Shown here one piece after another: positions 4,798 to 16,966 of a stretch of 64,000 nucleotides of DNA. A model generated the notes under the pieces. That model did no database searches and had not been told where the DNA came from. It saw nothing but the letters and a program-made list of their open reading frames with translations. Source of the DNA: Ramlibacter sp. GTDB taxonomy: Bacteria; Pseudomonadota; Gammaproteobacteria; Burkholderiales; Burkholderiaceae_C. How positions within the stretch are numbered: the stretch's first letter is position 1; each line of letters begins with the position of its first letter. The stretch spans positions 62,001-126,000 of the forward strand of contig JAQZBU010000005.1 in the NCBI GenBank assembly GCA_029237735.1. Reading direction: 5' to 3'. Made by a program: the position numbers and the translations under genes.

Positions 4798-5598
4798 TTA
4801 CTTCAGCCACTTCTCGAGCGCCTCGGCCGGGATGTCCGCACCGTGGTACTTCTTGAAGATTTCGTTGAGCTTGCCGTTCTTGTGGTTGGCCCGCACCCAG
4901 TCGTTTACCCAGGCCAGCAGCTTCGTGTCTTCCTTGCGCACGCCGATGCCGAGGTCGTTGGTGCGCAGGATGAACTTGGGCTCCAGCTGCCGGTTCGGCG
5001 CCTTCTGCGTCATCGTCTGGAACAGCGCGGCGGAGGTGCCCACCAGGTCGGCCTGGCCGGTGACCACGGCGGTGATCACGCCGGCATCGTCGTCGTAGCG
5101 CACCACGGTGGCACCCTTGGCGTTCTGCGTGAGGTCGCTGTCCTGCGTGGTGCTGCGGTTCACCGCCACGCTCTTGCCGGCCAGGTCGGCCATGCTCTTG
5201 ACCTGGATGCCCTTGATGCCGCCCACCAGCGAGATCTGCGGGGCGTAGGGCACGGAATAGTCGACCACCTTGGCGCGGTCGGCCGTCCAGGCCAGGGTGG
5301 AGATGATGATGTCGGCCTTGCCGGTCTGCAGGTTGGGGATGCGCGTGGCACCGACGGTGGGCACCACTTCCAGGGCGACGCCCAGGTCCTTGGCCAGCAG
5401 CACCGCCACGTCGTAGTCGGAGCCGGTGGGCTTCATGTTGGCGTCGGTCATGCCCGAGGGCGGCACCGCGAGGTCGACCGAGATGCGGATCTTCTTGGCC
5501 GCGCGGATGTTGTCCAGCGTGTCGGCCTGGGCGGCGAAGCCGCAGGCAGCCACGGCCAGCACGAGTGCGCTGCGAGTGATGAAAGAGATGGGTTTCAT
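4798..5598 (-). CDS. ABC transporter substrate-binding protein, polar-amino-acid family
   Basis: A 266-aa periplasmic binding protein (SBP_bac_3 type) with a clear signal peptide at residues 1-25 ending after GFAAQA. Family markers include VDLAVPPSGM near residue 40 and GKADIIISTLAWTADRAKVVDYSVPY around 93-118. The Arg in TADRA normally holds the ligand carboxylate. It belongs with the two permeases and the ATPase encoded just upstream. Homologues usually import amino acids. In this locus, surrounded by sugar-acid enzymes, a sugar acid with a free carboxylate is a reasonable alternative ligand (inference). Confidence 0.88.
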   Translation of the reverse strand: MKPISFITRSALVLAVAACGFAAQADTLDNIRAAKKIRISVDLAVPPSGMTDANMKPTGSDYDVAVLLAKDLGVALEVVPTVGATRIPNLQTGKADIIISTLAWTADRAKVVDYSVPYAPQISLVGGIKGIQVKSMADLAGKSVAVNRSTTQDSDLTQNAKGATVVRYDDDAGVITAVVTGQADLVGTSAALFQTMTQKAPNRQLEPKFILRTNDLGIGVRKEDTKLLAWVNDWVRANHKNGKLNEIFKKYHGADIPAEALEKWLK

Positions 5599-5616
5599 GT
5601 GATGTTTCCTCTTGGT

Positions 5617-6345
5617 TTACAAGCCGTTGTCGACAAATTGCTGCAGTTCGGCGGTCTGCGGATTCAGGATCATGTCGCCCGTCCCGGTTTCCCAGATGCG
5701 GCCTTCATGCATGAAGATGACGGTGTCCGCGACCTTGCGCGCGAACGCCATTTCGTGAGTGACCAGCACCATGGTCATGCCGCCGGCCGCCAGGTCTTCG
5801 ATGACCTTCAGCACCTCGCCGGTGAGCTGCGGATCGAGCGCCGAAGTGACCTCATCGAACAGCATCACCTGCGGCTCCATCGCGAGCGAGCGGGCGATGG
5901 CCACGCGTTGCTGCTGGCCGCCCGAGAGCTGCTCGGGATAGGCCTGGGCCTTGTCCGCCAGGCCGACCTGGCGCAGCACCGTGGCGGCGATCGCCAGCGC
6001 CTGCGCTTTCGTCTTGCCCTTGGCGGCGCGCGGCGCCAGCGTGATGTTTTGTTCCACCGTCAGGTGCGGGAACAGGTTGTAGCTCTGGAACACGATGCCG
6101 ACATCGCGCCGCAGGCTGCGCAGGTCCAGCGCCGGGTCGTCCACCCGATGGCCGCACACCTCGATGTGCCCGCTGTCGATGGCTTCCAGCCGGTTGATGC
6201 AGCGCAGGGCCGTGCTCTTGCCCGATCCGCTGCGACCGATGATGGCCACCACCTCGCCCTTCTTCACCTGGAACGACACGCCCTTGAGCACGTTCAGGCT
6301 GCCGAAGCTCTTGTGCACGCCTTCAAGATTCACAATACTGGACAT
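5617..6345 (-). CDS. ABC transporter ATP-binding protein, amino-acid type
   Basis: A 242-aa ATPase with Walker A GRSGSGKST (residues 37-45), Q-loop FQSYNLFPH (86-94), signature LSGGQQQR (140-147), Walker B MLFDE (161-165) and the H-loop VTHEM further on. The ATG at 6345 has AAGGA about 8 bases upstream and is preferred over a TTG at 6351. It overlaps the end of the upstream permease gene by 23 bases, which implies translational coupling. It energises import by the adjacent permease pair. Confidence 0.92.
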   Translation of the reverse strand: MSSIVNLEGVHKSFGSLNVLKGVSFQVKKGEVVAIIGRSGSGKSTALRCINRLEAIDSGHIEVCGHRVDDPALDLRSLRRDVGIVFQSYNLFPHLTVEQNITLAPRAAKGKTKAQALAIAATVLRQVGLADKAQAYPEQLSGGQQQRVAIARSLAMEPQVMLFDEVTSALDPQLTGEVLKVIEDLAAGGMTMVLVTHEMAFARKVADTVIFMHEGRIWETGTGDMILNPQTAELQQFVDNGL

Positions 6346-7027
6346 CGCCAATTCCTTTCTTCGTTTCAGGCACGCTCTTGCGCACCACGAGCAAACGGTC
6401 CTCGAGTTTTCGGGCCCACCACGAGAGCGGGTAACACAGCAGGAAGTACAGGCCGGCCACCAGCATGTAGACCATGAAGGGCTCGAACAGCGAGTTGTTG
6501 ATCACCTGGCCGGCCCGCGCCAATTCGACGAAACCCACCACCGAAGCGAGCGACGTGTTCTTGACGATCTGCACCATGAAGCCGACGGTGGGGGGCGTGG
6601 CGATGCGCAGGGCCTGCGGCAGGATCACCATGAAAAGGCGCTGGCTGCGCGTGAGCGCCAGGCACTCGGCTGCTTCCCATTGGGTCCTGGGTACGGCTTC
6701 GATGCAGCCGCGCCAGATCTCGCCGATATAGGCGCTGACGTAGATGGTCATCGAGATGCCCGCGGCGACGATGGCCGGCAGGGAGAGGCCCATGATGCTC
6801 AGGCCGAAATAGGCCAGGAACATCAGGATCAGGAGCGGCGTGCCTTGCACCAGTTGCACATAGCCCAGCGAGAGCCAGCGCAGCCAGCGCCAGCGCGAGA
6901 TGCGCGCCAGCGCCACGCCGAAGCCGACCAGGCCGCCGCCCGCGAATGCCATCAGCGACAGGATGATCGTCCAGCCGGCGCCCTGCAGCAGGAACTGCAG
7001 GTGGTTGATGTTGAATTCGTTGTTCAT
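6323..7027 (-). CDS. ABC transporter permease, amino-acid type (second permease)
   Basis: A 234-aa inner-membrane protein with about five hydrophobic segments and the HisM/GlnP-type loop: the EAAECLAL motif near residue 132, followed by the ILPQALRIATPP segment. The ATG at 7027 is preferred. A longer reading from 7195 runs back through the preceding permease gene in another frame and has an unlikely Cys/Ser/Arg-rich N terminus. The gap to the first permease gene is 10 bases. It pairs with the gene at 7038-7721 as a heterodimeric channel. Confidence 0.9.
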   Translation of the reverse strand: MNNEFNINHLQFLLQGAGWTIILSLMAFAGGGLVGFGVALARISRWRWLRWLSLGYVQLVQGTPLLILMFLAYFGLSIMGLSLPAIVAAGISMTIYVSAYIGEIWRGCIEAVPRTQWEAAECLALTRSQRLFMVILPQALRIATPPTVGFMVQIVKNTSLASVVGFVELARAGQVINNSLFEPFMVYMLVAGLYFLLCYPLSWWARKLEDRLLVVRKSVPETKKGIGDVQYCES

Positions 7028-7037
7028 GGTGCTGCTC

Positions 7038-7721
7038 TCACATCGGCGTGCCGAGGCGGCGGCGGCGGGTGAACACCGCCTGGCCGATGGCCCAGAACGC
7101 TGCGCGCATGGCCAGCGACAGCATGAGGTAGAACACCGCCACCACGATATAGGTCTCGAAGGATCGGTAGGTGTCGGACTGCACGCGGTTGGCAATGGCC
7201 GTCAACTCCTCCGCCGAGATCTGCGAGGTGATCGACGAAGCCAGCATCAGCAGCACGAACTGGCTGGTGAGCGCCGGGTACACACGCTCCATCGCGGGCC
7301 GCAGGATCACGTGCCAGTACACCTGCACTCTCGACAGCGCCAGGCACTGCGCCGCCTCGATCTGCCCCTTGTGGATGGAGTCGATGCCGGCGCGCATGAT
7401 CTCGGTGGTGTATGCCCCGATGTTGATCACCAGCGCCGCGATGGCCGCGGCGTAGGCCGGCACCTTCCAGCCCAGGCTGGACAGGCCGAAGTAGACGATG
7501 AAAATCTGCACCAGCAGCGGCGTGTTGCGGATGATCTCCACGTACAGACTGCAGGTGCGGGCCACCCACGGGTTGTGGCTGCCGCGGCCGAAGGCGCACA
7601 GCGTGCCGATCAGGAAGCCCAGCAGCGTGGCGATCACCGACAGCTGGATCGTGAGCCAGGCGCCGTGCAGGAACAGCGGCCACTGCGCGAGCACGCCCGA
7701 AAAGTCGAATTTGTAGGTCAT
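7038..7721 (-). CDS. ABC transporter permease, amino-acid type (first permease)
   Basis: A 227-aa inner-membrane permease with five or so hydrophobic segments. It carries the EAAQCLALSRVQVYWHVILRPA coupling loop near residues 132-153 that contacts the ATPase, and an N-terminal segment typical of the His/Glu/Gln family. It lies 15 bases after the stop of the dehydrogenase gene, second in the operon, and works with the next permease, the ATPase at 5617-6345 and the binding protein at 4798-5598. Confidence 0.9.
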   Translation of the reverse strand: MTYKFDFSGVLAQWPLFLHGAWLTIQLSVIATLLGFLIGTLCAFGRGSHNPWVARTCSLYVEIIRNTPLLVQIFIVYFGLSSLGWKVPAYAAAIAALVINIGAYTTEIMRAGIDSIHKGQIEAAQCLALSRVQVYWHVILRPAMERVYPALTSQFVLLMLASSITSQISAEELTAIANRVQSDTYRSFETYIVVAVFYLMLSLAMRAAFWAIGQAVFTRRRRLGTPM

Positions 7722-7736: not shown

Positions 7737-8624
7737 TCAGGCGGCAGGACGGTACGAGTTCACGATCGAAGCCGTGTCCTTCATTCCGTTGCCCTGCCCC
7801 ACGTAGTCAGCGTAGCGGCGGGTCGCGGCTTCGAGCATGGGCAGGCTGAGCGCCAGTTGGTGCGCCTCTGCCGTCACAGCCTTCAGGTCCTTCAGCAACT
7901 GCCGCGCGTAGGCGCGTGGCGGGTCGAAATCGCGCGCCTGCATCTGCGGGTAAAGGTGCTTGAGCAGGGTGCTGTCCGCGTGGCCACCGGCCAGGCATTG
8001 CGGCAGCCGGCTGGCGTCCACGCCGGCCGCTTCGGCCAGGGTCAGCGCCTCGGCCAGCACCACATACGTGCTGCCGACGATCAGCTGGTTGATCATCTTG
8101 GCGGTCTGTCCGGCGCCGCTGGGGCCGATGTGGGTGAAGTTCGCGGCCAGGTCGGCCATGACGGGGCGAATGGCTTCGATGTCGCGGGCGTCGCCGCCGG
8201 CCATGATCGTCAGCGTGCCGGAGCGCGATTGCACCGGCCCGCCGCTCACGGGGGCATCGACCCAGCCCATGCCGGACTTCGCCTGGAGTTGGGTCGCCAT
8301 CTCACGCGTGGCCGCCGGATCGATGGTGGAGTGATCGATCAGGATCTTGTCCGCGCCGGCCGCAGCCGCGATGCCTTGCGCGCCGAACACGCATTCGCGC
8401 ACGGCGTCCGTGTGCAGCACACACATGATGACGATGTCGCTGGTCCTGGTTACCTGCTCGGGCGACTGCGCCGCCACCGCCCCGGCCGCGACGAGGGGCG
8501 GCACGCGTTCGGGCTCGAGGTTCCACACCGTGACCGGCCAGCCCTGCTCCAGCAGCCGCAGCGTCATCGCCGTGCCCATGATGCCCAGCCCTACAAAACC
8601 GATCCGGGCTCTTTCTGCCGCCAT
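7737..8624 (-). CDS. Beta-hydroxyacid dehydrogenase (GarR / 3-hydroxyisobutyrate dehydrogenase family)
   Basis: A 295-aa NAD(P)-dependent oxidoreductase. It shows the Rossmann motif GFVGLGIMG (residues 9-17), the substrate-site DAPVSGG (123-129), and the GAGQTAKMINQ segment whose Lys176 is the family's catalytic lysine. Relatives reduce tartronate semialdehyde or oxidise 3-hydroxy acids. The ATG at 8624 has GGAG seven bases upstream. An ATG at 8636 and a longer reading from 8762 are possible but less well supported, and the latter would run through the 8684-8725 palindrome. It is the first gene of the sugar-acid operon. If it makes D-glycerate, the divergent kinase and enolase paralogue would be natural next steps (inference). 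Confidence 0.87.
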   Translation of the reverse strand: MAAERARIGFVGLGIMGTAMTLRLLEQGWPVTVWNLEPERVPPLVAAGAVAAQSPEQVTRTSDIVIMCVLHTDAVRECVFGAQGIAAAAGADKILIDHSTIDPAATREMATQLQAKSGMGWVDAPVSGGPVQSRSGTLTIMAGGDARDIEAIRPVMADLAANFTHIGPSGAGQTAKMINQLIVGSTYVVLAEALTLAEAAGVDASRLPQCLAGGHADSTLLKHLYPQMQARDFDPPRAYARQLLKDLKAVTAEAHQLALSLPMLEAATRRYADYVGQGNGMKDTASIVNSYRPAA

Positions 8625-8786: not shown

Positions 8787-9800
8787 ATGGCGTATGTGGA
8801 TCTCTCCCAGGATGCGGCGGCGATCAGCCGCATCTTCGTGACCTTGGGCCTCGCGGCGGCGGATGAGCCCGTTCATGCGACGGCGCTTGCCGGTGGCGTG
8901 TCTTCCGGCATCTATCGCATCGACCTGTGCTCGGGCAGCTACTGCCTGAAGCAGGCGCTGCCGCGGCTCAAGGTCGCCAAGGAATGGAACGTGCCGGTCG
9001 AACGCGTGTTCGCGGAAATTGATTGGCTCCAGGCAGCGGGGCGCATCGCGCCCGGGCACGTGCCGCGCGTGCTGGGGCAGGACGACGCAAGCAAGTGCTT
9101 CGTCATGGAGTTCCTGGGCCCCGAGTATCACAACTGGAAGTCGGAGATGCTGGCCGGCCACATCGACGTTGCCGTGGCTCGCGACGTCGGCGACGTGTTG
9201 GGACGCATCCATGCGGCCACGGCCGACGATGCAGCGCTGGCAAGCCGCTTTGCCACCGACGCCAATTTTTACGCCATCCGCCTGGAGCCCTACCTGGTGG
9301 AGACCGCGCGCGTGCACCCTGCCCTGTCCGACACGCTGCTGGCCACCGTGGCGCGCACCGCGGACACAAGGCGCGTGCTGGTGCATGGCGATGTCAGCCC
9401 CAAGAACATCATGATCGGGCCGAACGGGCCGGTGTTGCTGGACGCGGAATGCGCGTGGTTCGGCGACCCGGCGTTCGACCTGGCGTTCTGCCTCAACCAC
9501 TTCCTGCTCAAGGCGGCACACATGCCGCAGCGCATCGCCGATTTGATGGCCAGTTATCGCGCATTCGGCGATGCGTACTGGCCGCATGTGCACTGGGAGC
9601 CGAGGGCGGCTCTGGAGGCGCGCGTGGCCACGCTGCTGCCGTGCCTCACGCTGGCGCGCGTGGACGGCAAGTCGCCGGTCGAGTACCTGGGTGAGCCCCA
9701 GCGCGAGGAGGTGCGCCGTGTCGCGGTGGTGCTGCTTCAGGACACACCGGTCACACTTGAAGGTATTGCGGCCCATTGGGCTGGGGAATTCGAAGCATGA
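8787..9800 (+). CDS. Aminoglycoside-phosphotransferase-fold kinase of small metabolite
   Basis: A 337-aa kinase of the APH/choline-kinase fold (PF01636). It has the nucleotide loop LAGGVSSGIYRI near residues 34-44, a lysine region YCLKQ near 54, the catalytic Brenner motif HGDVSPKN (200-207) and the metal-binding Asp219 in LLDAE. No antibiotic-resistance context is present. Its stop overlaps the start of the enolase paralogue by 4 bases (9797-9800), so the two products are made together and probably act in sequence: phosphorylate, then eliminate or isomerise. Glycerate from the divergent dehydrogenase is one candidate substrate; a sugar acid is another. Confidence 0.85.
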   Translation: MAYVDLSQDAAAISRIFVTLGLAAADEPVHATALAGGVSSGIYRIDLCSGSYCLKQALPRLKVAKEWNVPVERVFAEIDWLQAAGRIAPGHVPRVLGQDDASKCFVMEFLGPEYHNWKSEMLAGHIDVAVARDVGDVLGRIHAATADDAALASRFATDANFYAIRLEPYLVETARVHPALSDTLLATVARTADTRRVLVHGDVSPKNIMIGPNGPVLLDAECAWFGDPAFDLAFCLNHFLLKAAHMPQRIADLMASYRAFGDAYWPHVHWEPRAALEARVATLLPCLTLARVDGKSPVEYLGEPQREEVRRVAVVLLQDTPVTLEGIAAHWAGEFEA

Positions 9801-11059
9801 ACATCAAGCAGGTTGCGGCGCGCCGTATCTGGGACTCGCGGGGCCGGCCCACCGTGGAGGTGGAGGTTGTCAATGAAGACGGCACCTTCGGGCTCGGCAT
9901 CGCGCCCGCAGGCGCGTCCATGGGCACGCGCGAAGCCGTCGAATTGCGCGACGGCGGCACGCGCTTCAAAGGCCTGGACGTGCAGAACGCGTTGCGAGGT
10001 ATCGTCGGCGAGATCGCGCCTACTCTCGTGGGCCGCGACGTCACCCGGCAGGCCGACATCGATGGCGCGCTGATCGCATTGGACGGCACGCCGACGAAGT
10101 CGCGGCTGGGCGGCAACGCCTTGATCGCCACGTCGCTGGCCGTGCTGCACGCCGCGGCGGCCCACCTGCCGCTGTGGCAATACCTCGCGCAGGGGCGCCC
10201 CGTGCGGCTGCCGCTGCCGCAGATCCAGATCTTCGGTGGCGGCGCGCACGCAGGGCGGCGCGTGGACGTGCAGGACTTCATGGTCATCGCAACGGCAGCA
10301 ACATCCTTCTCGCAGGCGCTGGAAATGACGGCGGAGGTCTATCGTGCAGCCGGCGAGCTGATGGCTTCGCGCGGCCAACTCGCGGGTGTGGCGGACGAAG
10401 GCGGCTGGTGGCCCAGCTTCGCGCGCAACGAGGAGGCGCTCGACGCGCTGGTCGCCTCCATCGAGAAGGCCGGCTTCGTCCCGGGACAGGATGTGGCGAT
10501 CGCGCTGGACATCGCAGCCTCGGAGTTCGGGCGCGGCGGCAAGTACAGGCTGGCCCTCGAAGGGCAAGAGCTGGATACCGACGCGCTGTGCGAGCGGCTC
10601 GTTCGCTGGACGGAGAAGTACCCCATCGTCTCGATCGAAGACCCGCTGGCCGAGGACGACGAAGCCGGCCTCGTCGCGTTCACGCGCGCCGTGGGCGGGC
10701 GCGTGCAGGTGGTCGGCGACGATTACCTCGTCACCAACGCCGACCGCGTGCGCGCTGCTGCCACGGTGGGCGCGTGCAATTGCGCTCTCATCAAGCCGAA
10801 CCAGGCCGGCACCGTCACGCAGACACTGGCCGCACTGGAGGCGGCCAGGGCCGAGGGCTACGCAACCATCGTGTCGGCGCGCTCGGGCGAGACGGAAGAC
10901 GTGGCCATCGTGCACCTCGCCACGGGCTGGAACGCCGGCCAGCTGAAGGTGGGCTCGTTCGCGCGTTCCGAGCGCATGGCGAAGTGGAACGAGGGCATCA
11001 GGATTGAATCACGCGCCGGCGCGCCCTCGGGCTTCGCCGGCAGGGCCGCCCTTGCGTAA
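9797..11059 (+). CDS. Divergent enolase paralogue
   Basis: A 420-aa enolase-family protein. By position against yeast enolase, conserved residues are Ser41 (S39), His151 (H159), Glu201 (E211), metal ligands Asp238, Glu281 and Asp308, Lys333 (K345), Arg362-Ser363 (phosphate binding) and Lys384 (K396). Two active-site positions differ: His373 is Ala361 (VSARSGETED) and Glu168 is Asp160 (VQDFM). The loop PSGASTG is PAGASMG. Genuine glycolytic enolase keeps these, so this is unlikely to be the housekeeping enzyme, and its gene lies in a catabolic operon with a kinase. It may act on a phosphorylated sugar acid or be a weakened enolase. The ATG overlaps the kinase stop. Confidence 0.85.
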   Translation: MNIKQVAARRIWDSRGRPTVEVEVVNEDGTFGLGIAPAGASMGTREAVELRDGGTRFKGLDVQNALRGIVGEIAPTLVGRDVTRQADIDGALIALDGTPTKSRLGGNALIATSLAVLHAAAAHLPLWQYLAQGRPVRLPLPQIQIFGGGAHAGRRVDVQDFMVIATAATSFSQALEMTAEVYRAAGELMASRGQLAGVADEGGWWPSFARNEEALDALVASIEKAGFVPGQDVAIALDIAASEFGRGGKYRLALEGQELDTDALCERLVRWTEKYPIVSIEDPLAEDDEAGLVAFTRAVGGRVQVVGDDYLVTNADRVRAAATVGACNCALIKPNQAGTVTQTLAALEAARAEGYATIVSARSGETEDVAIVHLATGWNAGQLKVGSFARSERMAKWNEGIRIESRAGAPSGFAGRAALA

Positions 11060-11945
11060 GGCGATTCCGCTCGTCGTGCTCCTCACGCTGGTGTGGGGCA
11101 CCGCCTGGCAGCTGTTTCCGATGGCGGTGCGCGAGGTCTCGGTGTGGACCTTTCGCGCCGTGAGCCTGGTCATCGCGGGCCTGCTGCTGCTGGCCGTCGC
11201 GCGGCTGCGCGGCGAGTCGTTGCGCGTCCCGCGATCCCACTGGGGCACCGTGGTGGCCGCGTCATGGGTTTACCTGGTGGTCTGGAACGTCGCGAGCACC
11301 TATGCCGCCATCCTCATTCCATCGGGCCAGGCTGCGATCCTCGGGTTCACCATGCCGCTGTGGGCGGCGCTGGCCGCGTGGGCCCTGCTGGGCCAGCGCC
11401 CGGGCGTTCGAGTGCTGCTGGCCCTGGTTTTCGGCGGCCTGGGGGTGGGCCTGCTGATCTACGACGGCATCGGCGTGTATGCGCAGGCACCGGTCGGCTT
11501 CGCGCTGGGTTTGCTGTCGGGTCTCGGCTGGGCGCTGGGCACGCTCCTCCTGAAGCGCCGGCCTGTTCCGGTCTCTTCACTGGTGCTGACGGGGTGGCAG
11601 CTTCTGGCTGCTGCGGCGCCGGTCGTATTGATCGCGTTCGTGCGGGGCGACGGCGTGTGGTTCATGCCGTCCGCGACCACGATCGCCGTCATCGGCTACA
11701 TCATTTTGATGCCCATGGCGTTGGGCAACGTGACCTGGTTCGCGATCGTCGGACTGTTGCCGGCGAACATTGCCGGCCTGTCGTCGGTGATGGTGCCGGT
11801 GGTGGCCATGATCTCCGGCGCCGTCATCCTGCGCGAGCCACTGGGGCCTGTCCAGTGGACGGCGATGCTGTGCTGCGCGGTCGGCTTCGGCCTGGCGCTG
11901 CTGAAACCCCACCGGCCGCGAGATAGTACGATTCCTGTCCCATGA
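11052..11945 (+). CDS. EamA/DMT-family transporter
   Basis: A 297-aa inner-membrane protein with about ten hydrophobic segments in two EamA repeats; LVWGTAWQLFPMAV near the N terminus and the second-repeat segment around GYIILMPMALGNVTW are typical. The start is uncertain: a TTG at 11052 overlaps the enolase stop, and a longer TTG reading from 11004 adds 16 residues. It is the third gene of the kinase/enolase operon and could export or import a pathway metabolite. Its last codon overlaps the start of the broken EVE gene by 4 bases. Confidence 0.85.
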   Translation: MRKAIPLVVLLTLVWGTAWQLFPMAVREVSVWTFRAVSLVIAGLLLLAVARLRGESLRVPRSHWGTVVAASWVYLVVWNVASTYAAILIPSGQAAILGFTMPLWAALAAWALLGQRPGVRVLLALVFGGLGVGLLIYDGIGVYAQAPVGFALGLLSGLGWALGTLLLKRRPVPVSSLVLTGWQLLAAAAPVVLIAFVRGDGVWFMPSATTIAVIGYIILMPMALGNVTWFAIVGLLPANIAGLSSVMVPVVAMISGAVILREPLGPVQWTAMLCCAVGFGLALLKPHRPRDSTIPVP

Positions 11946-13093: not shown

Positions 13094-13714
13094 TCAGCGT
13101 GCGATGAGGGCGATGCAATAGCCCAACGCGAGGCCCAGGCCCGTTGCGAACACAACCAGCCACGCCGGTACCGGCGCGCCGAGCCCTCCACCCGGAAAGA
13201 CGGGCGGCGCTCCAGCCGCTGCCGGCACTCCAGCTGCTGCGGGGACGGCCACCACCTCTGGCACACCGGTGCCGCCGAGCTGCCGCGCGAAGGCCGAGAA
13301 AAAGTCATCGGCGTTCTTCTTTGCCACCGTCTGCAACAAGCGGCTGCCGACGCTGGCCAGCTTGCCGCCGATTTCGGCCTGCGCCGCATAGGTGAGCAGG
13401 GTTTCGAGACCTTCGTCCCTGAGGGAGACCCGGGCGCTCATGCGCGCGAAACCGGCGGCGCCCCCCTGTCCCTGGCCGGTCAGCGTATAGCCGTTGGGCG
13501 GGTCCAGCTCGGACAGGTTCACCGCGCCTCGGAAGGTCGCGGCCACCGGGCCAACCTTGGTGACGACGATGGCCGTGAATTCGGTATCCGATACCTTGTC
13601 GAGCTGTTTGCAGCCGGCGATGCATGCCTTGAGCACGCCCGGATCATTCAACGCCTCCCAGACCGCTTGCCTCGCTGCGGGAACCCGGTACTCACCGGTG
13701 ATTTCCATGCTCAT
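13094..13714 (-). CDS. CoxG-family (SRPBCC) protein
   Basis: A 206-aa protein with an SRPBCC/CoxG domain at residues 1-150 (VPAARQAVWEALNDPGVLKACIAGC at about 9-33 and AKKNADDFFSAFA near 135). A Pro/Ala/Val linker and a C-terminal membrane anchor (LVVFATGLGLALGYCIALIA) follow. CoxG proteins accompany molybdenum hydroxylases of the CO-dehydrogenase family and are thought to help maturation or membrane attachment of the enzyme. It is the last gene of the nine-gene operon, and its ATG overlaps the dehydrogenase stop by 4 bases (13711-13714). Confidence 0.88.
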   Translation of the reverse strand: MSMEITGEYRVPAARQAVWEALNDPGVLKACIAGCKQLDKVSDTEFTAIVVTKVGPVAATFRGAVNLSELDPPNGYTLTGQGQGGAAGFARMSARVSLRDEGLETLLTYAAQAEIGGKLASVGSRLLQTVAKKNADDFFSAFARQLGGTGVPEVVAVPAAAGVPAAAGAPPVFPGGGLGAPVPAWLVVFATGLGLALGYCIALIAR

Positions 13715-14592
13715 GATCGTGCCTCGTAGTGCTTGAACAGGGCTTGGGTGCCAAGTCGCGAATGTCCCTGGTCCACCAAGCCGGTGTACAGCTTGCGGGC
13801 CAGGGCCAGCGCGGGCAAATCCAGCTGCATGCGCTGCGCTTCTGCCAGGGCAATACCCAGGTCCTTGACGAAGTGCTCGATGAAGAAGCCCGGCGCGAAG
13901 TCGCCTTCGATGATCTTGCCGCCCATCACGCTCAGCTGGAAACCGCCCGCCGCACCCGCGCCGATGGACTTGAGCACCGTGGGCAGGTCCAGGCCCGCCG
14001 CCTTGCCATAGGCCAGTCCCTCGCACACGCCCATGATGGTGGACGCGATGACAATCTGGTTGCACATCTTGGTGTGCTGGCCGGCGCCCGCCTCGCCCTG
14101 GCGGACGATGTTCGCTCCCATCAGTTGCAGCAGGGGCAGCGCGGCGTCGAAGGCGTCCTGCGCGCCACCCACCATGATCGAGAGTTTCGCGTCACGCGCC
14201 CCGACTTCGCCACCCGACACCGGCGCATCCAGCGCACGGCATGCGCGCTGCGCCGCCTCGGCGGCAAGCCGCCGGGCCAGCTCGGGGCTGGAGGTGGTCA
14301 TGTCGATCAGCAGGGCATCGCGAGCGCCTGCCAGCACGCCGTCGGCGCCGAGCCAGACCTGCTCCACGTCGCTCGGATTGCCCACCATGGTGATGACCAC
14401 CTCCGATTGGGCGGCGACCGCGGCGGGCGTATCGCACCACGTCGCGCCCGCGGCCAGCGTCTCTGCCGCCTTCTCGCGCGAACGGTTGTACACCCACAGC
14501 GGATGTCCGGCCGCCAGGATATGGCCGGCCATGCTGCGGCCCATGATGCCCAGGCCGATGAATCCAACGCGTGTGTTCTTGGTGTCTGTCAT
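13711..14592 (-). CDS. Beta-hydroxyacid dehydrogenase (3-hydroxyisobutyrate dehydrogenase family)
   Basis: A 293-aa NAD(P)-dependent dehydrogenase with GFIGLGIMG at residues 10-18, LDAPVSGGEVGA near 120 and GAGQHTKMCNQ near 165, where the Lys is catalytic. It is a second member of the family in this window (the other is at 7737-8624), and the two loops differ enough that they probably use different substrates. It lies 13 bases after the large molybdenum subunit gene and overlaps coxG. In this operon it likely interconverts a hydroxy acid and a semialdehyde made or used by the hydroxylase. Confidence 0.87.
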   Translation of the reverse strand: MTDTKNTRVGFIGLGIMGRSMAGHILAAGHPLWVYNRSREKAAETLAAGATWCDTPAAVAAQSEVVITMVGNPSDVEQVWLGADGVLAGARDALLIDMTTSSPELARRLAAEAAQRACRALDAPVSGGEVGARDAKLSIMVGGAQDAFDAALPLLQLMGANIVRQGEAGAGQHTKMCNQIVIASTIMGVCEGLAYGKAAGLDLPTVLKSIGAGAAGGFQLSVMGGKIIEGDFAPGFFIEHFVKDLGIALAEAQRMQLDLPALALARKLYTGLVDQGHSRLGTQALFKHYEARS

Positions 14593-14605
14593 TTGTTCTG
14601 CCTCT

Positions 14606-16966
14606 TCAATCAGGTTGCCGGCCGCGCAGCAAGTCGCGCAGGTACATGGGAGTCAGCGGCTGGCGCGTGGCCGTCACGCCGAACGGGGCGATCGCATCGT
14701 TCACGGCATTGGTAACAGCGCCGATCGCGCCCATCACGCCGCCTTCGGCCATGCCCTTGATGCCGGCGGGCGTGGCCTTGTTGGGCGTATGCATCGAGAC
14801 AATCTCGAAATGCGGCAGCTCGTGGGCCGTCGCCACGAGGTATTCGGCCAGCGAGCCGGAGAGGTTTTGCCCGTTGGCGTCGTATTCGACGTGCTCGAAC
14901 AGGGATCCCGACAGTCCCATGGCAATCGCGCCATGCTGCTGCCCTTCCACCACGACAGGGCTGAGCACGGTGCCGCAGTCCTCGGCCACAAGGTAGCGAT
15001 CGAAGCCGATGGCACCGGTGTTCGCATCCACACGCACCTCGCACACGTGCGTGGAGTTGGAATAGGTCATCGGCGGCGGCTCGTAGGTCTTGTGGAACTC
15101 CAGGCCCGGGCCCATGCCTTGCGGCAAGGCGAGCGGGTCCAGGTAAGCGGTGCGCGCGACGTCCGCCAGGCCCAGGCCGGTGACGCGCCACTGCGAGTCG
15201 CGGAACTGCTCGACACAGCCGTCGCGCATCCGCAGGTTTTCGCAGGACGCGAGGCCCAGGCGCTGCGCGGCGATGGCCAGCACCTTGGCTCTCGCGTCCA
15301 GCGCGCACAGGTACAGCGTTCCGCCGCCGGCCGTGCCGCCGCGCGCGCCGCGGCTGCCCATGCCATAGGGCGCGACGTCGGTGTGGCCAAGCTGTATCTG
15401 GACACACGAGGGATCGACCCCCAGCCCTTCGGCCACCGCGTTGGACAGCGCCGTCTCGTAGCCCTGCCCTGTCGCGCCCAGCCCGCAGGAGGCATTCACG
15501 ACGCCCGACGGCTCGATGCGCACCCACGCCGCCTCATGTCCCGACCCGGGAATGCCCGCCGCTTTGTAGAACTTCGACCCATAGGTGGTGGACTCGACGA
15601 CGGTGCAGATGCCCAAGCCCAGGTACACGCCCTGCGCCCGCGCGCCACGCTGCCGCGCACGGAAATCCTCGTAGTCGATCGCGGCCAGTGCCGCCTCCAT
15701 GGTTTCGCGCGGCGTGATGTCGGCCAGCACTTCGCCGGTCGCCATGGTGTAGGGCAACTCACCGGCCTCGATCATGTTGATGCGGCGCACGGCCACCGGA
15801 TCGAGCTGCAGGCTGCGCGCGACGGCGTCCAGCGTGCCCTCCATCACCCAGCTGGTGACGGACATGGGAGCGCGCATCGGCCCGTTGCCGACCTTGTTGG
15901 ACAGCACTACTTTCACGTCGTAGCTGTAGTTCTGTATCTTGTAAGGGCCGGTGAGGATCATCGCCACCACGCGGGCCAGGTAGTTGCCGGGGTAGAAGCT
16001 GTAGGCGCCGAAGTCTTCGACGATCTCCAGCTCCAGCGCCAGCACGCGCCCCTGCGCGTCTACGGCGGCGCGGGTGCGGCAGTGGTCCTCCCGCGCCTGC
16101 GACGAGGCCAGCAGGTTTTCCATGCGGTCCTCGCGCCAGCGCACGGGGCGCTTGAGGTGCCGCGCCACGGCTGCGACCGTGAGCTCCTCGCGGTACAGGG
16201 CGATCTTCTGCCCGAAGCCGCCGCCCACGTCCGGCGAGATGACGGTGACCTGCGATTCCGACAGCCGCAGCCGGCCGGCGAGCGTCGTGCGGTAAGGATG
16301 CGGGACCTGCGTGCCGACATGGAAGGTGAGGTGCTGGCGTCCTTCGTCCCACACCGCGATGCAGCCGCGCGTCTCGATCGGCAGGTGGGTCTGGCGGTGC
16401 TGCGAAAAAACGCTTTCGACCACGCGGTGGGCCCTTTCCATCTGCGAGGCCACATCGCCGTGCTGCGCGTGCTGGTGCGAGAGCAGGTTGGACAGCAGCG
16501 TCTCGTCGACCCGCGGCGACACCGGGTCGAGCGCCTCCCACATCGTCGTGACGGCAGGCAGCGCCTCGTAGGTTACGGCCACTGCTTCGGCGGCGTCTTC
16601 GGCCAGGTAGCGGTCCTGGGCGATCACGCAGGCAACGGGGTCACCCTGAAAGCGGGCCTTGTCGATGGGCATCGTGTCCATCTCCACAGGCTGCAGGCCA
16701 TCGATGGGCGGCGCCATGCGGTGGCGCGTGGTCCAGGCGGCGACGTCCTTGCCGCTTACGACCGCGACCACGCCAGGCATGTCGAGCGCGGCCTGCGCGT
16801 CGATGGAAACGATGCGGGCGTGCGCGTGCGGCGAGCGCACGAAGCACGCGTGCAAGGCGCCCTCAACGGAGATGTCGTCGATGTAGCGCCCACGCCCGGT
16901 CAGCAACCGCTCATCTTCCTTGCGCGGCGTGTACGAGCCGATATGACGAAACTTATCGTCACCCAT
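14606..16966 (-). CDS. Molybdenum hydroxylase large subunit (xanthine dehydrogenase / CoxL family)
   Basis: A 786-aa molybdopterin-binding subunit. Visible markers are GRYIDDISVEGALHACFVRSPHAHARI near the N terminus (about 26-50), the VGGGFGQKI cofactor loop near 240, the GATGQGYET segment near 495 and KGMAEGGVMGAIG near 740, which carries the catalytic glutamate. The CO-dehydrogenase signature AYRCSFR is absent, and the matching active-site loop reads GNGPMRAPMSV, unlike the common AYRGxGRPE form, so the substrate is unlikely to be CO and may be unusual. The ATG at 16966 overlaps the 2Fe-2S gene's stop by 8 bases; a longer reading from 17062 is rejected as it overlaps more. Confidence 0.9.
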   Translation of the reverse strand: MGDDKFRHIGSYTPRKEDERLLTGRGRYIDDISVEGALHACFVRSPHAHARIVSIDAQAALDMPGVVAVVSGKDVAAWTTRHRMAPPIDGLQPVEMDTMPIDKARFQGDPVACVIAQDRYLAEDAAEAVAVTYEALPAVTTMWEALDPVSPRVDETLLSNLLSHQHAQHGDVASQMERAHRVVESVFSQHRQTHLPIETRGCIAVWDEGRQHLTFHVGTQVPHPYRTTLAGRLRLSESQVTVISPDVGGGFGQKIALYREELTVAAVARHLKRPVRWREDRMENLLASSQAREDHCRTRAAVDAQGRVLALELEIVEDFGAYSFYPGNYLARVVAMILTGPYKIQNYSYDVKVVLSNKVGNGPMRAPMSVTSWVMEGTLDAVARSLQLDPVAVRRINMIEAGELPYTMATGEVLADITPRETMEAALAAIDYEDFRARQRGARAQGVYLGLGICTVVESTTYGSKFYKAAGIPGSGHEAAWVRIEPSGVVNASCGLGATGQGYETALSNAVAEGLGVDPSCVQIQLGHTDVAPYGMGSRGARGGTAGGGTLYLCALDARAKVLAIAAQRLGLASCENLRMRDGCVEQFRDSQWRVTGLGLADVARTAYLDPLALPQGMGPGLEFHKTYEPPPMTYSNSTHVCEVRVDANTGAIGFDRYLVAEDCGTVLSPVVVEGQQHGAIAMGLSGSLFEHVEYDANGQNLSGSLAEYLVATAHELPHFEIVSMHTPNKATPAGIKGMAEGGVMGAIGAVTNAVNDAIAPFGVTATRQPLTPMYLRDLLRGRQPD

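Follow-up and report, generated by a model that had tools for sequence, protein, structure and literature searches.

The locus described here raises the question of why a bacterium with an ordinary enolase should also carry an altered one, whose gene overlaps that of a small-molecule kinase. The pair lies in a stretch of 64,000 nucleotides from Ramlibacter sp. (GenBank assembly GCA_029237735.1, contig JAQZBU010000005.1, positions 62,001 to 126,000), referred to below as the window; the ordinary enolase is encoded on another contig of the same 5.75-Mb genome (Enolase_C score 430 bits, versus 288 for the paralogue). In our opinion, the pair joins enolase chemistry on a probably changed substrate to a kinase of its own and, judging from sequence, probably represents an undescribed phosphorylation-then-elimination step on a small hydroxy acid. 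No description of such a pair was found in the literature searched, most subscription papers being outside its reach, and a first-pass annotation of the window, made from the DNA letters, had likewise known of no described pathway containing it.

The kinase-enolase pair and its conservation

The features of the pair are as follows.

8787..9800, + strand: APH-fold small-molecule kinase gene (337 aa, ATG start; open reading frame with PF01636)
9797..11059, + strand: enolase paralogue of the 'SARSGETED' clade (420 aa, ATG start; Enolase_N and Enolase_C)
10256..10258, + strand: codon of Arg154, in the loop after His151-Ala-Gly
10274..10276, + strand: codon of Asp160 (yeast Glu168 position)
10391..10393, + strand: codon of Ala199, before Asp200-Glu201
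10877..10879, + strand: codon of Ala361 (yeast His373 position)

The two genes overlap by 4 bases, and an alternative TTG start for the paralogue lies upstream at 9776 in the list of open reading frames. The first-pass annotation had placed both reading frames and their overlap correctly, although its title spoke of a 'fused' kinase; the genes are separate and merely overlap.

The association extends well beyond the window. By taxonomic rank, the kinase is present in 28 of 60 genomes sampled from the genus, 13 of 299 from the family, 55 of 399 from the order, 6 of 369 from the class and 9 of 398 from the phylum (these samples overlap), as well as in 32 plasmid records, including those of Rhizobium, Rhodococcus, Azospirillum, Paracoccus and the haloarchaea Haladaptatus and Halomarina. 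We examined 113 kinase loci, namely the window, L003, L007, 98 genome regions and 12 plasmid regions, which together span Burkholderiales, other Pseudomonadota, Rhodococcus and haloarchaea. An enolase-family gene lies near the kinase in 112 of them, and in the exception (L055) the stretch ends 78 bases past the kinase match. The SARSG motif is found in 107 of the 112 kinase-adjacent enolase-family genes; of the other five, three are cut by contig ends (L144, L152, L180), one is frameshifted (L076) and one is a degenerate relative (L119). The kinase comes first in 96 loci and the enolase in 12, while in 4 the genes are on opposite strands. When the start codon nearest the stop is taken, a 4-base overlap is seen in 65 of the 113 loci, and the genes are no more than 60 bases apart on one strand in 94. 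In L059, L115, L188 and L189 the two genes are separated or on opposite strands within one catabolic cluster.

The reverse search, in which a DNA pattern for the altered motif was run against the 399 genomes of the order, found the motif in 52, of which 50 are among the 55 with the kinase (Fisher exact 3e-55, n = 399 genomes, uncorrected for kinship). In the two genomes with the motif alone, it lies within 910 bases of a contig start, so that the front of the enolase gene and any preceding kinase gene would be off the contig. Among the five genomes with the kinase alone, three (G470, G478, G704) have an enolase gene truncated to a fragment at a contig end, G736 holds a kinase fragment by itself and G492 has the variant motif SARSGESEC. 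The kinase was found beside an ordinary enolase in none of 31 loci of 3.5-3.9 kb each. The possibility that the pair is not conserved elsewhere, on which the first-pass annotation had staked its proposal, is contradicted by these counts (112 of 113 loci, 50 of 52 genomes).

The paralogue passes the cut-offs of both enolase domains (Enolase_N, 146.7 bits against 35; Enolase_C, 286.2 against 21.5) and of the full-length model TIGR01060 (eno, 455.5 against 300), so automatic annotation would name it phosphopyruvate hydratase. It retains Ser41, His151, Glu201, Asp238, Glu281, Asp308, Lys333, Arg362, Ser363 and Lys384. Thus, the Mg ligands, Lys345, Lys396, Arg374-Ser375 and Glu211 of yeast enolase all have equivalents, and His373 and Glu168 are replaced by Ala361 and Asp160; in the yeast enzyme the two lysines are catalytic and the Arg-Ser binds the phosphate.

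These features were followed in an alignment of 105 full-length paralogues beside the kinase (seven of the 112 were left out as short, split, truncated or very distant) and 31 ordinary enolases: the one encoded in the window genome plus the 30 top-scoring Enolase_C matches. Position 361 is Ala in all 105 paralogues and His in all 31 ordinary enolases; position 160 is Asp in 104 paralogues (Asn in one) and Glu in every ordinary enolase. The retained ligands, lysines and Arg-Ser and these two substitutions had been read correctly from the window at first pass. Three further clade-specific changes near catalytic residues had been overlooked: Ala199, before the Asp-Glu211 equivalent (Ala in 105/105 versus Gly in 31/31); Arg154, in the loop after the His (Arg in 94/105 versus Asn in 31/31); and position 385, after the Lys396 equivalent (Val or Ile in 105/105, Val in the window, versus Thr in 31/31). 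By the criterion used, 23 columns separate the two sets, and five of these adjoin catalytic residues. Given the 105 versus 31 and the 50 of 52 counts, neither the pairing nor the residue changes are due to chance, and the changes look like a fixed alternative active site rather than scattered losses.

In the tree, the paralogues do not group with the ordinary enolases. The careful tree (55 rows; three long-branch rows removed, trait columns kept, no archaeal enolase in the ordinary set) unites 37 paralogues against 18 other enolases with support 100/99; in a quick tree with the long-branch rows included and counted in neither group, support for the clade is 93. Archaeal, actinobacterial and proteobacterial paralogues all fall inside it. 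A separate archaeal origin is thus unsupported, the haloarchaeal copies being inside the clade of a tree that held no ordinary archaeal enolase. The paralogue has two deep sub-clades, in both of which Ala361 and Ala199 are fixed. In the kinase tree, the partners of these sub-clades lie partly intermixed; an exchange of partners, which would suggest a shared intermediate, is not forced by the well-supported branches.

The kinase scores 79.1 bits with PF01636 (APH; cut-off 23.2), and its motifs HGDVSPKN (200-207) and DAECAWFGDP (219-228) are intact, with His200-Gly-Asp202, Asn207 and Asp219 invariant in all 18 aligned rows. It falls far below the models for aminoglycoside resistance kinases of the APH(3') type (NCBIfam APH_3p, 19.5 bits, cut-off 205) and for methylthioribose kinase (TIGR01767, 72.3 bits, cut-off 275), and none of PF02595, PF13660 and PF00485 (glycerate kinases of class I, II and III) appears among its Pfam matches at E 0.001. 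Its closest named relatives, at 79-80% identity, are in three Ramlibacter metagenome assemblies.

Two loci deserve separate mention. On an Enterobacter chuandaensis plasmid (L119:7193-17826), a kinase 36% identical to that of the window stands with the degenerate enolase-like gene, divergent on the opposite strand, among U32 peptidase, aminotransferase, redox enzyme and major facilitator superfamily (MFS) genes; this is possibly a biosynthetic use of the same pair. L175 has two kinases of the family (6024-6848 and 14311-15285), just one of which is beside an enolase paralogue.

Genes around the pair

The other features of the window near the pair are as follows.

11052..11945, + strand: EamA-family transporter, overlapping the 3' end of the enolase gene (PF00892; start from the gene caller)
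7737..8624, - strand: beta-hydroxyacid dehydrogenase, divergent from the kinase (PF03446/PF14833)
4798..7721, - strand: ABC transporter of polar amino acid type, made up of two permeases, an ATPase and a binding protein; lies downstream of the dehydrogenase

The EamA transporter gene is possibly a third gene of the kinase-enolase unit; among the loci compared, a homologue (84% identical) lies beside the pair in L065 only, and a distinct family, EamA by eye, is downstream of the pair in 12 loci. The dehydrogenase is best matched by the tartronate semialdehyde reductase model TIGR01505 (226.6 bits, under its cut-off of 340.75). Its divergent position was as the first-pass annotation had it; a functional link to the pair is unsupported, since a comparison at E 1e-20 with the genes called in the other 112 loci gave no homologue. 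Other reductase families adjoin the pair elsewhere. The ABC binding protein, which scores 103 bits with PF00497 and 134.9 with TIGR01096 (under the cut-off of 256.35), also has no homologue in the other loci; the permeases and ATPase were assigned by eye from open reading frames. Further along the minus strand (13711-16966), a molybdenum hydroxylase large subunit gene stands beside a second beta-hydroxyacid dehydrogenase.

Across the 113 loci, neighbours were clustered by sequence similarity, with family models run on representatives only, and a gene was counted in the same operon if it was on the same strand and within 100 bases. A D-2-hydroxyacid dehydrogenase is in the operon in 17 loci, a fumarylacetoacetate-hydrolase family protein in 7 and a PanE-like reductase in 6, the last rising to 25 within eight genes on either strand. 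In 24 loci the pair is alone or at a contig end. Phosphoenolpyruvate (PEP) carboxylase adjoins the kinase in L115 (annotated), L188 and L189, and also in L245, outside the 113; these are two Rhizobium plasmids and two genomes with the same gene cluster.

Several loci carry richer surroundings. A fumarylacetoacetate-hydrolase family gene and a short-chain dehydrogenase/reductase come after the pair in L117, L118, L192 and L193; in L117 and L192, the two compared with family models, the hydrolase is nearest to 2,4-didehydro-3-deoxy-L-rhamnonate hydrolase (NF053535; 352.2 and 334.3 bits, under the 500 cut-off). A further gene of L192 is MR/MLE dehydratase-like and scores 275.9 bits with the galactonate dehydratase model (cut-off 311). 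In L162, a galactarate-dehydratase-like protein (174 bits, cut-off 731) is encoded together with an RraA-like one; L158 also encodes an RraA-like protein, and LacI regulators and sugar ABC transporters stand beside some pairs. The L059 cluster includes, with the pair, an HpaD-like dioxygenase, a zinc alcohol dehydrogenase, an FMN reductase and a weak cupin match; similar sets are annotated on plasmids of Rhizobium, Rhodococcus opacus and Sphingobium, the last lacking the FMN reductase. L157 (478-14329), from a genome of the window's order, holds a B12-dependent methyltransferase cassette on the same strand as the pair: a corrinoid protein, a URO-D type methyltransferase, a methyltetrahydrofolate:corrinoid methyltransferase, a RACo-type activator, MTHFR, DUF1638 and a PhyH protein before it, and formate-tetrahydrofolate ligase after it. 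The same clusters recur in the same order in L165, a shorter set with a URO-D protein is found in L175, and a MetE-like methyltransferase lies near the pair in L007.

Elsewhere in the genomes, a gene for DUF4147, the class II glycerate kinase family, was found in all four genomes tested (G000, G353, G091 and G017; the G000 match covers 65-234 of 234 positions), and the same four gave no class I glycerate kinase.

Proposed reaction and substrate

The reading that we prefer, with a probability of roughly 45%, is that the pair acts on a three-carbon, glycerate-like acid other than D-glycerate. The genes, their pairing, the fixed changes and the clade are observed; every reaction of this module, its substrate class and its product we infer. 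The APH-fold kinase would phosphorylate the 2-hydroxyl of the acid; the paralogue would then abstract the C2 proton through Lys333, together with Lys384 and two Mg2+, and expel the C3 group to give PEP or a very near analogue, and PEP, or a product entering at PEP, would feed central metabolism. The retained lysines, metals and phosphate site argue for a 2-phospho carboxylic acid and proton abstraction at C2. The leaving hydroxyl in yeast enolase is held by Glu168, His373 and Glu211; since the changed positions surround it in the yeast structures, the change most likely concerns C3. The C3 pocket would be roomier and less polar (Asp160, Ala361, Ala199, Val385), with one Arg added, and would suit a 3-substituted lactate such as 3-O-methylglycerate. 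At other loci, the adjoining D-2-hydroxyacid dehydrogenase or PanE-like reductase, of families that make D-series 2-hydroxy acids from 2-keto acids, may produce the acid from a 3-substituted pyruvate. The PEP carboxylase adjoining a few pairs, together with the lone pairs, points to PEP, or a compound entering at PEP, as the product.

It is unlikely, though conceivable, that the leaving group is no longer hydroxide at all, and that methanol or another small HX is expelled from a 2-phospho-3-X-lactate to give PEP. The pair would then be a general exit of 3-substituted pyruvates (from amino acids, sugar acids or ring-cleavage products) to central metabolism. The one-carbon cassette of L157 and the MetE-like methyltransferase of L007 fit a methyl ether substrate, although plain glycerate would result if the methyl group were taken off first.

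Several points weigh against a substrate other than D-glycerate, or against the argument leading to it. The adjacency of PEP carboxylase probably reflects one lineage, and the genes upstream of the pair differ greatly between loci. The five changes discussed were chosen out of 23 differing columns, the pocket argument rests on the geometry of yeast enolase, and the partners lie intermixed in the kinase tree, whose well-supported branches require no partner exchange. The presence of a DUF4147 gene does not prove D-glycerate kinase activity. The galactarate-dehydratase-like and RraA-like proteins and the hydrolases of the 2,4-diketo-3-deoxy-acid type near some pairs would equally yield plain glycerate. 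Moreover, a dedicated isozyme of lower glycolysis is known in a glycerate operon, pykF of P. aeruginosa (PMC12694930).

For this reason, salvage of D-glycerate is kept as a serious minority possibility. The kinase would then represent a fourth class of glycerate 2-kinase, with the APH fold, and the paralogue would be an enolase isozyme dedicated to PEP formation, with D-glycerate supplied by reduction of hydroxypyruvate or tartronate semialdehyde. The likeness of the window dehydrogenase to tartronate semialdehyde reductase is in keeping with this possibility, as are the galactarate-dehydratase-like gene, the RraA-like gene and the sugar-acid hydrolases, the PEP carboxylase of four loci, the adjoining reductases, whose families make D-2-hydroxy acids, and the P. 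aeruginosa glycerate operon with its own pyruvate kinase. A plain isozyme is, however, unlikely to lose His373 and Glu168 in 105 of 105 sequences each, or to share a partner kinase in 50 of 52 genomes. With DUF4147 in all four genomes tested, there are simpler readings than an isozyme pair for D-glycerate; these genes and the ordinary enolase of the window genome could already serve D-glycerate, which favours a different three-carbon acid. Thus, the first-pass proposal of phosphorylation followed by elimination on an acid other than, or in addition to, glycerate gains from the fixed changes, the pairing, the ordinary enolase and DUF4147, and D-glycerate itself stays a candidate.

Rather unlikely, in our judgment, is a larger substrate with hydroxyls at C2 and C3 (erythronate, threonate or a sugar acid). 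The kinase would phosphorylate it at O2 and the paralogue would dehydrate the product, yielding the enol phosphate of a 2-keto-3-deoxy acid; this would amount to an ATP-assisted bypass of the sugar-acid dehydratases. LacI regulators, sugar ABC transporters and the below-cut-off rhamnonate-type hydrolase directly after the pair in L117 and L192 point this way, and a C4 group would find space in a roomier C3 pocket, where Arg154 could bind it; on the other hand, L192 also has its MR/MLE dehydratase-like gene, there are lone pairs without sugar genes, and the adjacency of PEP carboxylase points to PEP itself. Salvage of L-glycerate, with the altered enolase accepting 2-phospho-L-glycerate, would explain the need for a separate kinase and enolase beside the ordinary ones, yet the recurrent reductases belong to D-2-hydroxyacid families and the phosphate and Lys positions are unchanged, so we regard it as quite improbable. 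Some His373 mutants of yeast enolase reportedly keep part of their activity; Ala at this position would therefore not by itself prove that ordinary activity is lost. A study of His373 mutants is cited in PMC5237310. That the paralogue has drifted or is non-catalytic, its pairing being incidental, is very improbable: two residues near the leaving group are lost, but the Mg ligands, both lysines and Arg-Ser are retained, the changes are fixed rather than scattered, and motif and kinase co-occur in 50 of 52 genomes.

Three other routes were considered and set aside. Elimination of sulfite from sulfolactate, prompted by TauE/SafE-like neighbours seen by eye in four loci, is weak because the acid residues serving the leaving hydroxyl are kept. 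An acetolactate-type route, with a PRK07586 thiamine diphosphate enzyme before the pair, concerns three loci only (L060-L062), and the PEP-mutase-like gene near the pair in L123, which would indicate a phosphonate route, scores far under the cut-offs.

The distinction matters since a well-separated clade found in Bacteria and Archaea passes the glycolytic enolase model and is named enolase in the annotated plasmid records examined; if the paralogue does something else, these annotations are wrong, a new catabolic step is at hand, the hydroxy-acid 2-kinases gain a fourth fold and enolase takes its place among the enzymes re-aimed in nature. As just two soluble proteins are involved, the question lends itself to a direct test.

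Comparison with known systems

The kinase is closest in kind to metabolite kinases of the APH superfamily. Methylthioribose kinase has the same fold and is its best NCBIfam match (72 bits), but the score is far under the 275 cut-off; PDB entries 2pyw and 2olc also match by sequence. Glycerate kinases were described in 2007 as three unrelated classes (PMC2063504). The glycerate pathway, with a kinase of one of these classes and the housekeeping enolase, shares the proposed logic of hydroxy acid to 2-phospho acid to PEP; it differs in that the window kinase belongs to PF01636 and comes with a dedicated altered enolase, a DUF4147 gene being present besides.

The gcl cluster of P. aeruginosa (PA1498-PA1502) serves to produce glycerate and phosphorylate it, and has a dedicated isozyme of pyruvate kinase. 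The glycerate logic and the dedicated isozyme are thus shared, but the kinase is of a different family, the five listed open reading frames include no enolase, and the word 'enolase' is absent from the text of PMC12694930.

On a Salmonella plasmid (L236:7992-15403), enolase, MFS, DUF4147, ligase, GntR and pyruvate kinase genes stand in a row. As in the window, a divergent enolase adjoins a kinase-family gene, here DUF4147, and a pyruvate kinase gene is added; unlike the paralogue, this enolase has Glu at the His373 position and falls outside the clade on a long branch of the quick tree. It is a second, unrelated kinase-enolase-pyruvate kinase set. Other stray enolases were also seen on plasmids. 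In Vibrio europaeus (L237:3988-9275), an enolase paralogue that has Arg in place of His373 and lacks the Asp-Glu-Gly-Gly motif lies downstream of aconitase X and DUF126 genes, and on three actinobacterial plasmids (L238, L239, L240) an extra enolase lies beside CrcB fluoride channel genes, in two of them together with inorganic diphosphatase and phosphoglycerate mutase; this last group looks like fluoride resistance with spare target enzymes.

The nearest known relative remains ordinary enolase (TIGR01060), which has the same fold, both domains, the Mg ligands, the Lys pair and Arg-Ser; the paralogue is 42-48% identical to 24 ordinary enolases. It differs, in yeast numbering, by His373 to Ala, Glu168 to Asp, Gly209 to Ala, the loop Asn to Arg and Thr397 to Val or Ile, and it stands in a separate clade, accompanied by its partner kinase.

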